From Halorarum halophilum (lineage in GTDB: Archaea; Halobacteriota; Halobacteria; Halobacteriales; Haloferacaceae), in NCBI RefSeq assembly GCF_013401515.1, contig NZ_CP058529.1, positions 186,001 to 250,000 of the forward strand: DNA of 64,000 nucleotides. The letters run 5' to 3'. A model generated the notes under the pieces. The model was not told the DNA's origin, did no database searches, and saw only the letters and a list, made by a program, of their open reading frames with translations. Below, one piece after another: positions 43,573 to 47,476 of this stretch. The position numbers and the translations under genes are program-made. Numbering within the stretch: position 1 is the first letter of the stretch; each line of letters begins with the position of its first letter.

Positions 43573-44083
43573 AGTTGCCTCCCTCGATCGCCGCTAGTGT
43601 ACCCAGACAGGCGAGTTCAATAGTGGTACTTACCATATTGTTCGTCCGCTGTGCTCGGAGGCGAATATCGCTCGCTCCGTGGATCGACGTGGCTATTGGG
43701 TGGGCTCTTGTGAGATTTTGGCTCGCAAAAAACGAGGTCTTCAGATGGCGGTTTCGGCCACTGCGAACGCCGACTCTTTCTGGCATGATAGTTCATCATC
43801 ACCGGCGCGATTAGGTCGATCTAGTGGGGGATCGGTCGTCGATGGCACCCGCGAGCCAATTGGTTGCCGAGACTACCCGATTCCCGGAAGTAATCCCTGT
43901 ACGGCTGACTGATGTAACGCTAAGTACAGTGTCCGGGATTAGCGAGCTCCTCCATCGGTGATGTCGAGAAATATGCAATCCGTGTTGTCTGGGATGGGCG
44001 CCTTAGCAACTCAAGAGTAGGTAAGATCCCCTTCAGTGGCAGGCAGATCGTTTACGCAGTTGCCGGATGCCACCTAGGATGGT
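43573..44083. other. low-GC gene-free stretch at the left edge of the island
   Basis: This is 511 bp in which GC falls well below the flanks. It holds the promoter of the DUF7344 gene and, at 43880-43929, one copy of an imperfect repeat found again at 46488-46537. Short open frames exist but look random. It ends at the DUF326 gene. The stretch is most simply read as decayed mobile DNA. Confidence 0.45.
43880..43929 (+). repeat. imperfect direct repeat, left copy
   Basis: These 50 bases align without gaps to 46488-46537 with 40 identities. Shared landmarks are CGGAAGT, AGTACAG and an ATGT-ACGC core. The two copies bracket the DUF326, membrane protein and antiporter genes, as expected for remnants of flanking insertion sequences or target-site duplications that have since diverged. 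Confidence 0.6.
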
Positions 44084-44440
44084 ATGTCCCTTTCAGACAC
44101 CATCTCGAAAATCGACAGCCTGAGCGACGAGCAACGCGAATGCATCGAGAACTGTAACGAGGCCGCCGCGGTCTGTGAATGGTGTGCCGACGAGTGCCTC
44201 GGCGAGGAAGGGATGGAGAAGTGTGCCCGACTCTGCCGGGACGTGGCTGACCTCACGTCGCTGCACGCCCGCTTTATAGCCCGGAGTTCGAACTATAGCA
44301 CCCAGCTCGCACAGGCTTGTGCCGGCGCGTGCGAGGAGTGCGCCGAGGAGTGCGAGCGCCACGACGCCGACCACTGTCAGGTCTGCGCGGACGTCCTCCG
44401 GGAGTGCGCCGAATCCTGTCGGAGTATGGCCAACAGCTAA
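44084..44440 (+). CDS. cysteine-rich four-helix protein (DUF326, copper-binding type)
   Basis: A 118-residue helical protein with 15 cysteines spaced as CxxxC and CxxC pairs along helices (CIENC, CEWCADEC, CARLC, CAGACEECAEEC, CQVC, CAESC). This is the DUF326 / four-helix-bundle copper-storage pattern, where cysteines lining the bundle bind many Cu(I) ions. No signal peptide is present, so it would act in the cytosol. Copper binding is inferred from the family. A His/Met-rich membrane protein is encoded 77 bp downstream. Cysteine-rich proteins are otherwise rare in this window. Confidence 0.8.
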   Translation: MSLSDTISKIDSLSDEQRECIENCNEAAAVCEWCADECLGEEGMEKCARLCRDVADLTSLHARFIARSSNYSTQLAQACAGACEECAEECERHDADHCQVCADVLRECAESCRSMANS

Positions 44441-44517
44441 GTGACGACCACGAACACACCCACCGCTTCCTTCGCTACTGCTCGGACGGTGAAGACCTCG
44501 TAACTCTATTCAAAAAG

Positions 44518-44844
44518 ATGGCTTCAGATGACGGTGGAATGGACGCAAGGCGAATCGAAGAACGCCTGCAGCAGCTCGGACACTACTCCCGATTCGTCAG
44601 AGCAGGTCTCGGTGTCATCCTCGTCACGTTCGTCCTCGCGGCCGTCGTTCTCTTGCCCGAGAACACTGACTCACCCGCGAGCGCTGTCGAGACGTTACTC
44701 ATGCCGCTCATCTTCGTCGGTATGGGGCTATTGCTGTTCGGCATTGGGATGCACCTCCACCTCATGCATATGAATCTAGTCCGACAACTACGGAACGACC
44801 CAGATACGGACGAGACGTCCGCTAACAGAGGCGGGGATTCGTAA
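44518..44844 (+). CDS. two-helix membrane protein with a His/Met-rich motif
   Basis: A 108-residue protein. An N-terminal amphipathic region is followed by membrane helices at about residues 29-46 (AGLGVILVTFVLAAVVLLP) and 61-80 (ETLLMPLIFVGMGLLLFGIG). The second helix runs straight into GMHLHLMHMNLV, where His and Met alternate, and then an acidic tail. His/Met clusters at a membrane interface are typical metal-handling features, in keeping with the Cys-rich neighbour upstream. Family unrecognised. The ATG at 44518 is the first usable start; the open frame upstream overlaps the DUF326 gene in another frame. Confidence 0.6.
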   Translation: MASDDGGMDARRIEERLQQLGHYSRFVRAGLGVILVTFVLAAVVLLPENTDSPASAVETLLMPLIFVGMGLLLFGIGMHLHLMHMNLVRQLRNDPDTDETSANRGGDS

Positions 44845-44879
44845 GCAGGTCTACGTAGCAGTTGATTCAGACTCAGCCG

Positions 44880-44995
44880 ATTTGAACAACTTCTTCCCTG
44901 TGTGTGGGCGCTGTGAGTGACAGTCGATCCTCGAGGAAGAGTTACCGAAACTAAGCTATTCTGGCTCTGTTGAGACCCTCCTCTTGAGACAGCTA
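44880..44995. other. insertion-sequence-like relic, copy A
   Basis: No intact gene is present. The stretch has CCTGTGTGTGGGCGCTGTGA (a broken zinc-finger-like coding fragment), then AGCTATTCT at 44954-44962 and GGCTCTGTTGAGACCCTC at 44963-44980. The last element recurs at 46351 with 16 of 18 identities, and AGCTATTCT recurs at 46484. I associate GGCTCTGTTGA-type ends with haloarchaeal insertion sequences, from memory. Confidence 0.4.
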
Positions 44996-45102
44996 TTCCA
45001 GTAGAACGGCCGGCCACTACAGATGCGCCCCTCCCATTCCTTCTTGGCCATGCCATTCAAGCGAATCGAGACTCCAGTGGTACAATAGCGTTCAAATACT
45101 GC

Positions 45103-46347
45103 ATGGTCGAGACAACCGCTGTCGTCTTGGGAGTGCTTGTCTCCTTCGCCATTGCTATCGGCGTTCGGGTTCTGTCAAACCGAACCCTGCTCCCATACAC
45201 CGTTTTACTTGTCACTGTCGGATTCATGTTGTCGGTTTTTCCCCTTCAGACGTACCTCGGGTTCAACCTCGACCCCCTCTTTACGCATGACGCGATTCTC
45301 TTCATATTTCTGCCCGCGATTCTGTTCCTTGGCGCTGCGGAGATCGACCACGAGAGATTTCGACAAAACTTGCTGATCACTGTAATAACCGTTCTTGTCG
45401 GGCTCCCCGTCGCCATCACAGCGATCGGCTGGCTCGGGACGAAGCTCTTCGAAATGCCGCTGTTGATCATGCTCCTGTTCGGAGCGATGGCCTATCCGAT
45501 CGATCCCGTTGCCGTCCTCTCACTGTTTGAGAAAGCGGGAGCTCCACCACGACTGGCAGTTCTTGTCGAGGGGGAGAGCCTTCTCGATGATGGTCTTGCG
45601 ATCGTTGTGTTCTCGGCGTTGTTAGCACTCGTACGAGATGCTAGCCCCACGGAACTTACCGGAACGGGACTCTTCTCGTTAGACCAGTTGGGAGCGTTCG
45701 TGATCGACTTCCTCATTGTGAGTCTGGGCGGAACTCTCGTCGGAATCGGTATTGGATACGCCACGTACCGAATGCAACGGGCAACGAATGACCAAGCGAA
45801 TCTTTTCATGATATCGTTCATCGCGGTCTACGGGGGGTTTTACGTCGCGGAACACGTGCTCCACGTAAGTGGAATTCTCGCCACGGTAGTTACAGGCCTC
45901 ATCTTGGGGACGTTGTCCAGAAAGTACGCACTGAGCGAGGAGAATCTCGAGTTTCTGGTGGGGATTTGGGAGAGCATCGTCTTCCTGCTCGAAACGATGT
46001 TGTTCGTCGCCATCGGCATCGAGGTATCGTCGAGGCAAGTGCTCAGTACACTTCCGATCGTGCTAACTACGCTTGTCCTCCTGATCGGTGTCCGTGCTGG
46101 CGTAATCTACGGGATTATGAATCTCCTGAACCAGGTGATCGAGGACCCCGTTCCCGTAAGCTACCAGCACGTCATAATCTGGGGTGGAATGCACGGCGTG
46201 ATACCGATCGCTCTCGCGCTCAGTCTCGGACCGGCCATCCCCTTCGGAGGTCAGCTCAAAACGGCGGTGTTTGGTGTTGTCGTCGCAAGCATGATCCTCC
46301 AAGGACTGTCGATGACAAGCGTGCTCGAAGCGACCGGTGTAACCTAA
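45103..46347 (+). CDS. CPA1-family Na+(K+)/H+ antiporter
   Basis: A 414-residue protein with about twelve membrane helices throughout. The ion-binding region AYPIDPVAVLSLF corresponds to the (A/P)TDPVA motif of CPA1/NhaP exchangers, and VEGESLLDDGLAIVVF corresponds to the EGESLLND signature. GIEVSSRQV and WGGMHGVIPIALALSLG in the second half match the family's later conserved helices. It would exchange Na+ (or K+) for H+ and help keep cytoplasmic pH and ion balance. Codon use is less GC-rich than chromosome-average here, and it lies within the repeat-bounded island, so horizontal acquisition is likely. No CNBD or RCK regulatory tail is present. Confidence 0.88.
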   Translation: MVETTAVVLGVLVSFAIAIGVRVLSNRTLLPYTVLLVTVGFMLSVFPLQTYLGFNLDPLFTHDAILFIFLPAILFLGAAEIDHERFRQNLLITVITVLVGLPVAITAIGWLGTKLFEMPLLIMLLFGAMAYPIDPVAVLSLFEKAGAPPRLAVLVEGESLLDDGLAIVVFSALLALVRDASPTELTGTGLFSLDQLGAFVIDFLIVSLGGTLVGIGIGYATYRMQRATNDQANLFMISFIAVYGGFYVAEHVLHVSGILATVVTGLILGTLSRKYALSEENLEFLVGIWESIVFLLETMLFVAIGIEVSSRQVLSTLPIVLTTLVLLIGVRAGVIYGIMNLLNQVIEDPVPVSYQHVIIWGGMHGVIPIALALSLGPAIPFGGQLKTAVFGVVVASMILQGLSMTSVLEATGVT

Positions 46348-46684
46348 TCCGGCTCTGTTGATATCCTCTTTGCGTCAGACGACAGGTTTCTTAGCAGCCT
46401 CCGGGCAGACGAAATCCTCACACCGGTTCCATACGTCTGTCCCGAGTGCCGACGAACTTACAGAAGGAGGACTGCCGAGAATTAGCTATTCTCGGAAGTG
46501 ACCCCTAAACAGCTAACTAATGTGACGCAAAGTACAGGTGAAGCAGTTACCGGAGCGACTACCGATCCCTCCGGGATCTGCTAAACGTCGCCTGCTGAAT
46601 ACAGAGGGTGTATACAGTAGACGGTTATCGTTCGTTTTCCGGCCATCAGCGACAAATCAGCCGCTAAGTGGGCTTGCGAACCGA
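46348..46684. other. insertion-sequence-like relic, copy B, and gene-free DNA
   Basis: This is 337 bp without a plausible gene. GGCTCTGTTGATATCCTC at 46351-46368 is followed by an open fragment translating to VPYVCPECRRTYRRRTAEN, a zinc-finger-like peptide ended by TAG. AGCTATTCT follows at 46484-46492, then the 50-bp repeat copy. The order of elements partly mirrors copy A near 44.9 kb. This looks like a decayed element or its gene tail. Confidence 0.4.
46488..46537 (+). repeat. imperfect direct repeat, right copy
   Basis: This is the partner of 43880-43929: 40 of 50 bases are identical without gaps. It sits just after the zinc-finger-like relic and before the 115-residue membrane protein gene, closing the interval that holds the three island genes. 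Confidence 0.6.
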
Positions 46685-47032
46685 TCAGCGATATCGACGG
46701 TAGAGCGTCAAAACTGATCCTCCAGCACCAATGGCGATACAGAGTATCGATAGAAAGGTGGTAATCTGCACGGAGGGATCCTCACACTCTACGGCTACCC
46801 CCGGATCATCATCATACTCTGCGTGACACTGGTGAATCTGGTGTTGATTCCAGATTCCTGTACCTCCCCCAATGAGGACCAACCCGAGCAGGACAATCGA
46901 AATTACAGCCAACCAGAAGTCGACTGAGGCTCCTGTTAGTACGAACGAATATCCGACTGTGAGAACCGGCAACCAAAGGATTCTCTCGGTCTTGTCCTCG
47001 AAGATCCGAATCGTATCTGCTACCGGCGCCAT
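46685..47032 (-). CDS. hypothetical membrane protein
   Basis: A 115-residue protein with three predicted membrane helices: WLPVLTVGYSFVLTGASV, FWLAVISIVLLGLVLIGGGT and FLSILCIAIGAGGSVLTLY. A polar loop containing HQIHQCHAEYDDDPG and a second cysteine (VECED) lies between helices 2 and 3. I do not recognise a family. Low GC and isolation within the island suggest recent acquisition. A cysteine/histidine-bearing external loop is the only notable feature. Confidence 0.5.
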   Translation of the reverse strand: MAPVADTIRIFEDKTERILWLPVLTVGYSFVLTGASVDFWLAVISIVLLGLVLIGGGTGIWNQHQIHQCHAEYDDDPGVAVECEDPSVQITTFLSILCIAIGAGGSVLTLYRRYR

Positions 47033-47260
47033 TGAATCTATACTTCGTCTCTCAGGCGTCAGGTGTCAAATCCCAGGGTACTGCTACCAGTATACCGAAC
47101 GCCCATTCTTTTCACTCAGATTCAGTATTTCTTCCGTTCAGCGCACCTACCGAGATTCCGAGCTGCATGGCTATTGAGAGTGCCAGCAAGCTCTGTGGGG
47201 CGTCGAGAACCATGCTTCCACGGAGACCCATAAGTACCCTAAGTAGGATTGAGAACGCGG

Positions 47261-47295: not shown

Positions 47296-47326
47296 CCCCC
47301 GACCCAACGACGGGCCGGGGTCGATA

Positions 47327-47400
47327 TGGGCCAACGCGGATTTGAACCGCGGACCTCCCGGTTATCAGCCGAGCGCTCAACCTAACTGAGCTATTGGCCC
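47327..47400 (-). tRNA. tRNA-Ile (anticodon GAT)
   Basis: A complete 74-base cloverleaf on the minus strand. The acceptor stem GGGCCAA pairs with TTGGCCC and the discriminator is A. The D-arm is GCTC/GAGC, the anticodon stem CTCGG/CCGGG encloses the loop CTGATAA (anticodon GAT), and the T-arm CGCGG/CCGCG has the loop TTCAAAT. CCA is not encoded. It decodes ATC/ATT. Its 3' end faces the low-GC island, the usual orientation for integration into tRNA genes. Confidence 0.95.
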
Positions 47401-47476
47401 AGGTGAGCGCAATCAGAGGTTGCGGGGGGAGTAGTTTAAGCGTTTCCGTTCGACAACGCCGTCACGTCGTGCGTTC

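Follow-up and report, generated by a model that had tools for sequence, protein, structure and literature searches.

In the genome of Halorarum halophilum, a gene for a small protein with 15 cysteines is followed by a gene for an equally small membrane protein with a conspicuous cluster of histidines, which raises the question whether the two form a copper-handling pair. This was proposed in an earlier note made from the DNA letters, which envisaged storage by the first protein combined with sequestration or transfer at the membrane by the second. In the following, the two are called P1 and P2, while "the window" denotes the whole stretch of DNA that was analysed (64,000 nucleotides). The host genome (G000) is haloarchaeal and comprises 4.28 Mb. 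The features of the locus are compiled in Table 1.

Table 1. Features at and around the P1–P2 locus, given in window coordinates.
Feature	Position	Strand	Basis and remarks
Low-GC segment carrying the P1–P2 pair, 3,624 bp	43628..47251	.	GC profile and congener alignment
Possible TATA-like element (TTTACG), 28-33 bp ahead of the start of P1	44051..44056	+	By eye; some of the other pairs have comparable letters ahead of P1
P1, Csp3-type (DUF326) cytosolic copper storage protein (probable), haloarchaeal subtype with Cys51 and His61	44084..44440	+	Homology, predicted fold
P1–P2 intergenic stretch, 77 bp (72-169 bp in other intact pairs)	44441..44517	+	
P2, two-helix membrane protein, 108 aa, unnamed family, nearly all haloarchaeal	44518..44844	+	ORF (ATG to stop codon), searches, model
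Codons of H79-N86, HLHxxHxN signature where membrane helix 2 ends	44752..44775	+	Alignment; metal binding putative

The identity of P1 can be addressed most directly. It had been described as a DUF326 protein with helix-spaced cysteines, and the coordinates, the cysteine count, and the family match all agree with this: the ORF codes for a protein of 118 aa whose 15 Cys follow a CxxxC/CxxC spacing, and this protein matches the Pfam DUF326 model above its cut-off (E 2.3e-9). The closest solved structures are BsCsp3 (E 9.4e-13), MtCsp3 (1.1e-11), and Streptomyces proteins (5e-11 to 1e-9); the Csp1 model TIGR04401 scored 31.7 bits and thus remained below its curated cut-off of 100. An AlphaFold2 model computed from a four-sequence input reached a pLDDT of 90, and all 20 Foldseek matches of this model at E<=0.001 were chains of cytosolic copper storage proteins, the predicted fold being a four-helix bundle. 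Judged by eye, the N-terminus (MSLSDTISKIDSL) is devoid of a hydrophobic or Tat-like stretch. Csp3 homology, the predicted Csp3 fold, the conserved Cys and His residues of the mouth, and the P1B ATPases among the neighbours (see below) support the earlier suggestion well, and P1 is very probably a cytosolic Cu(I) store, with copper binding deduced from fold and homology. A search of the accessible literature yielded no paper on haloarchaea featuring "four-helix bundle copper-binding" and none on halophilic archaea featuring "DUF326"; "DUF326" and "four-helix" are likewise absent from the main texts of a copper survey of Haloferax mediterranei and of a copper/nickel proteome of Halobacterium.

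Bacterial Csp3s, according to the accessible parts of two reports (PMC5171941, PMC10155185), bind Cu(I) tightly and release it slowly in vitro, and bound ions "appear to be trapped". For comparison, 48 haloarchaeal P1 sequences were aligned with the stretches of BsCsp3 and MtCsp3 from the structure-database match; the 40 P1 loci that feed this alignment and the context counts stem mostly from the best-scoring end of the P1 match list and are not a random sample. With the classical Csp3s (MtCsp3, BsCsp3, and SlCsp3, as portrayed in the accessible parts of PMC5171941 and PMC10155185), P1 shares the predicted fold and 14 of its 15 Cys columns, all 15 being 90-100% Cys (n=48) and these 14 being Cys in BsCsp3 and MtCsp3 alike. 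It also keeps the classical mouth motif of three Cys (C34, C47, C98) and two His (H93, H97), each present in 48/48 sequences. The differences from the classical proteins are, however, equally uniform. P1 possesses 15 instead of 18-19 Cys, and four core columns with Cys in BsCsp3 as well as in MtCsp3 (C31, C61, C65, and C118 of MtCsp3, named after the numbering of the match alignment) hold Cys in only 1, 0, 0, and 0 of the 48 sequences. Conversely, His61 is gained (47/48), the middle mouth His of BsCsp3 is replaced by Ala95, and Cys51 (48/48) occupies the position of Asn58 in MtCsp3 and of an Asp in BsCsp3. In the accessible part of PMC10155185, the Asn58 position is portrayed as a copper ligand at the border between core and mouth that influences the uptake rate.

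Since P1 lacks the full set of core cluster Cys (four columns lost in all, or all but one, of the 48 sequences), it is classed as a variant of Csp3 that, judged from the alignment, is uniform among haloarchaea. A certain parallel is offered by the non-classical RkCsp3, which also contains fewer Cys than the classical proteins (16) and likewise places a sulfur residue at the Asn58 position, that is, Met46 in RkCsp3 and Cys51 in P1 (PMC10155185, accessible part). In contrast to P1, however, RkCsp3 appears in that part of the report without the Cys/His motif of the mouth, whereas P1 retains the mouth and instead loses Cys of the core. With its rearranged core and classical mouth, the haloarchaeal subtype may be regarded as a natural experiment on the residues that control loading and release.

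P2 is less easily placed. Hydropathy indicates two membrane segments (approximately residues 24-51 and 54-83), and AlphaFold2 predicts helices 9-45 and 53-92, albeit with moderate confidence (mean pLDDT 69, pTM 0.43); ORF positions, hydropathy, and predicted helices thus agree with the two-helix membrane protein that had been noticed 77 bases downstream of P1. A fold search with this model gave no structural match (best E 1.4). Likewise, window P2 stayed below every family cut-off that was checked (Pfam, NCBIfam, and PHROG, with a single PHROG match at chance level, E 0.41), in line with the remark of the earlier note that it matches no family known to its author. An assignment as CopD (PF05425) was rejected, as the score of 15.7 bits compares with a Pfam gathering cut-off of 32.1. 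For 25 other P2 members, the best Pfam match was DUF2721 at E 8e-4, in a search that displayed no cut-offs.

Strong relatives of P2 occur in 45/293 genomes of the order and in 5/170 genomes of the family, and a profile search across the phylum matched 11/294 genomes, 10 of them from the same order. A scan of named genomes returned 33 loci, that is, 31 haloarchaeal ones, one from an Acidimicrobiia MAG, and one weak match in Lactococcus (L125); the latter and a match in G546 were excluded from the members. No match was found among 50,697 phage records. Of 17 plasmid records with a P2 match, 11 label it "hypothetical protein" and six carry no annotation at the site. P2 thus forms an almost purely haloarchaeal group that belongs to no named family. 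The only bacterial candidate member, from the Acidimicrobiia MAG (L117 8007-8216, 41% identity), keeps HLH and Asn, has lost the third His, and may represent contamination.

The most striking feature of P2 lies at the end of its second helix (GMHLHLMHMNLVRQ). The pattern HxHxxHxN occurs only once among the window ORFs of at least 30 aa, and in an alignment of 48 homologues, from which frame-disrupted copies (e.g., in L092) were excluded, the H, L, H, and N of HLHxxHxN are present in 48/48 and the third His in 47/48. On account of this near-invariance, the His motif is more than a chance occurrence. The earlier note had pointed to an alternating His/Met stretch at the membrane interface; its His half stands, at the end of helix 2, while its Met half does not, and Met residues were rejected as conserved ligands because most copies have either M or L at the first of these positions, and 45/48 have Leu at the second. 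The loop between the helices is nearly devoid of K/R, and the stretch of nine residues starting at the motif end is positive on average, which suggests that both termini reside in the cytosol, although this argument is weakened by an N-terminal part that is near neutral.

Does the combination of the two genes extend beyond the window? In nine genomes with an intact P1, this gene precedes P2 on the same strand at a distance of 72-169 bp; one genome with a truncated and one with a decayed P1 can be added. The spacing amounts to 77 bp in the window, 76 in G083, 75 in G265, 72 in G257, 101 in both G359 and G398 (a Halopiger xanaduensis plasmid), 169 on the Natrinema zhouii chromosome, 97 in Natronosalvus rutilus, and 154 in Haloterrigena alkaliphila; two named plasmids and the N. 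zhouii chromosome come in addition to the P2 genomes of the adjacency count given below. In G273 the truncated P1 is found 102 bp from P2, and in G215 only a decayed remnant of P1 is left. In these two cases (loci L056 and L060) P2 itself is intact, so that it can outlive its neighbour. The order spans four families with an intact P1 (five if a remnant is included), and the surrounding genes differ.

Of 47 P2 genomes, 8 have P1 at no more than 1 kb from P2 (truncated in one, a remnant in another), about 140 times the 0.06 expected for random placement of the 104 P1 matches in the 188 Mb of these 47 genomes relative to about 50 P2 copies. The co-occurrence that was to be looked for elsewhere is therefore present, order, strand, and short spacing recurring in four families far above random placement. 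On a tree of 65 P2 proteins built from few columns, the paired label must change 6 times, and supported branches force no fewer than 3 of these changes. At the level of whole genomes, P1 is present in 43/45 P2 carriers as compared to 112/248 genomes without P2 (p 2e-11, a value inflated by relatedness), after 12 of 57 initially matching order genomes (E 0.002-0.01) had been dropped; split by family, with inferred per-family numbers, the test gave p 4e-8 outside family f1 and 0.014 inside it. The majority of P2 copies, however, are solitary and do not adjoin P1.

Further observations bear on the origin of the window copy itself. The pair region has a GC content of 0.54-0.62 against a background of about 0.69, and the alignment with the congener G102 extends on the left to window position 43627 (with only 66% identity) and resumes at 47252 (87%), the two flanks being separated by 317 bp in G102 as compared to 3,624 bp in the window. 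P1 and P2 of the window share 90 and 89% identity with their counterparts in G083 (same family), and 88 and 81% with those in G265, which belongs to another family. This high identity across families among different genes suggests that the pair was transferred as a unit.

A possible link to copper also emerges from the genes around P2. Among 47 P2 loci from whole genomes other than the window (three of them short; the G234 loci and the second G383 copy were not included as long stretches), seven have a P1B ATPase within 8 kb as compared to 1.35 expected (p 5e-4, or p 0.003 without L088, which contains fragments only). In this and the following tests, densities derive from per-genome counts and rounded genome sizes, and the Poisson statistics ignore relatedness. 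PF00999 cation/proton antiporters, examined as control, were also enriched (4/47 vs 1.1 expected, p 0.025); part of the ATPase excess may therefore reflect transporter-rich islands, which somewhat lowers the odds for a copper role of P2. All nine ATPases that were typed (eight in the vicinity of P2 and one close to a host P1) pass the cut-offs of both the copper and the cadmium subfamily, with the copper model scoring higher in 9/9. P1B ATPases are also located within 8 kb of P2 in 6/12 loci of the short P2 subfamily, among which are some close relatives.

Individual loci illustrate these surroundings. In Natronosalvus rutilus, the P1–P2 pair is accompanied by a copper ATPase and a multicopper oxidase, and in Halomontanus rarus P2 is flanked by P-type ATPases, with a multicopper oxidase and a plastocyanin/azurin-type protein among the neighbours and P1 about 7 kb away. 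On a plasmid of Natrinema zhouii, an HMA-domain protein and a copper ATPase flank P2. Of 13 plasmid stretches examined from the 17 P2 records, eight contain a gene for a Csp3, a P-type ATPase, a multicopper oxidase, or an HMA-domain protein, a raw count without background control; the P2 stretches of Natronorubrum aibiense, Haladaptatus caseinilyticus, and Haloterrigena sp. KLK7 plasmids contain no metal genes. Many P2 copies are located in housekeeping surroundings, for example by a proteasome subunit gene in Halorussus-type genomes. P1 has similar neighbours of its own, as 7/40 P1 loci include a P1B ATPase in their 8-kb stretch (0.63 expected), three of them at 107-132 bp.

Several further neighbours deserve mention. 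The host genome encodes three more P1 paralogues (L083, L084, and L085), one of which is divergent (50% identity); a shortened one (C1:514877) is located directly 5' of a P1B ATPase gene on the same strand. Small Met/Gly-rich proteins with a SHOCT domain recur by P2 (L051 6773-7129, L120 7603-7947, and L105 7037-7288), the gene in L120 ending 2 bp before P2. In Natrialbaceae plasmids (L138, L140, L142, and L149), P2 is embedded in a block with TauE/SafE exporters, universal stress protein, thioredoxin, TusA, YeeE/YedE, and sometimes a multicopper oxidase.

We tentatively propose, at somewhat less than even confidence in the explanation as a whole, that P1 and P2 constitute a transferable copper-handling unit of haloarchaea in which P2 would act in docking or relay. 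Therein, P1 as a cytosolic Csp3-type four-helix bundle would take up Cu(I) on its Cys thiolates, while P2 would form a small helical hairpin in the cell membrane. As both of its ends are probably cytosolic, the His/His/His/Asn motif would face the side of P1, where it would most likely bind Cu(I) or a similar metal, and copper could then be passed between the P1-buffered pool and exporting ATPases or membrane copper enzymes. The recurrent pairing, the conserved motif, and the excess of P1B ATPases near P2 are what the data provide; metal binding by P2, its topology, the contact with P1, and the relay, like the membrane sequestration or transfer envisaged at the outset, are what we infer. Against the proposal speak the many P2 copies without an adjoining P1, the two intact ones next to a damaged P1, and the enriched antiporter control. 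For P2, a function in the handling of copper or a related metal is an evenly balanced proposition, whereas a direct docking or relay site for P1 copper seems unlikely. Equally improbable is that P2 represents an undescribed haloarchaeal family of membrane copper-docking proteins whose cytosol-facing HLHxxHxN exchanges Cu(I) directly with the 15-Cys Csp3 subtype. If true, a cytosolic copper store would have a dedicated membrane acceptor or donor. Being genetically linked to P1 and bearing a near-invariant His motif, P2 is a concrete candidate partner.

Alternatively, P2 might be a haloarchaeal membrane protein of a more general kind (respiratory, linked to heme or quinones, or involved in envelope stress) that meets copper genes by way of shared stress or transport islands and plasmids. 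Such a role would agree with the solitary copies in housekeeping surroundings, the likewise enriched antiporter control, and the decayed P1 next to an intact P2, as well as with a cbb3-type oxidase gene in the P2 neighbourhood of Halorussus salilacus and a gene for a 4Fe-4S/CCG-domain protein that adjoins P2 in L048. It fits poorly, however, with an order, strand, and short spacing that stay constant in four families while the flanks differ, and with an adjacency so far above random expectation, and we consider it possible but rather doubtful. The pairing would also be explained if P2 bound no metal but served as an anchor or adaptor, keeping P1 close to the membrane or to an ATPase. The His/Asn motif would then be structural, and the conserved Gly-rich helix beside it could be a packing surface. 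Yet invariant His, His, and Asn separated by variable letters are more easily reconciled with ligation or catalysis, and most P2 copies have no adjoining P1 to hold, so that this role is quite unlikely.

Doubts may also be directed at P1, which could be a broad thiol buffer for soft metals (Cd, Zn, Hg, Ag) instead of a copper store, with the unit serving general metal stress. With four core Cys columns of bacterial Csp3s lost and Cys51 and His61 gained, P1 cannot be an unchanged copy of the bacterial copper core, and the neighbouring ATPases pass the cadmium model, too. Nevertheless, all 48 sequences keep the Cys and the two His of the classical Csp3 mouth, and the copper model ranks top among the metal-specific subfamily models for every typed ATPase, which renders a soft-metal buffer very unlikely.

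For the proposed relay by P2, the membrane copper chaperone PpoB2 (COG5486, PF09948) offers a functional comparison only: as stated in the accessible part of PMC2855505, its gene adjoins that of a copper protein, which depends on PpoB2 for the transfer of copper. P2, however, has no PF09948 match and half the size. In L052, a DUF1326 gene and a PpoB2 gene annotated as "Copper chaperone" precede P2 on the same strand, the latter adjoining it. CopM (DUF305) is another small His-bearing protein near copper genes (PMC4335983, accessible part), and DUF305 genes are found near P2 of the short subfamily (L089, L090, L116, and L118). Unlike P2, to which it has no sequence match, CopM is described in that part as periplasmic or secreted in Synechocystis.

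Finally, some observations concern the low-GC segment of the window. Its right edge is marked by a tRNA-Ile gene (47326-47401, minus strand), the only element to reach the cut-off in a search for RNA elements. Integration at this tRNA by way of att repeats was rejected, as no direct repeat of at least 16 nt joins the tRNA end to the left boundary. Downstream of the pair, a PF00999 cation/proton antiporter gene is located at 45103-46347. It is not supported as a fixed third member of the unit, since it sits between the halves of a dispersed repeat and, of the remaining paired loci that were scanned, L044 is the only one with an antiporter gene, which differs from that of the window and lies 1.4 kb downstream. 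The repeat halves (44845-44962 and 46473-46620) are contiguous elsewhere in the genome (L191 and L192), and the antiporter stretch between them is bounded by imperfect direct repeats of 29 nt at 44952 and 46340. A third piece of the repeat is present to the left of the pair, at about 43863-43932.
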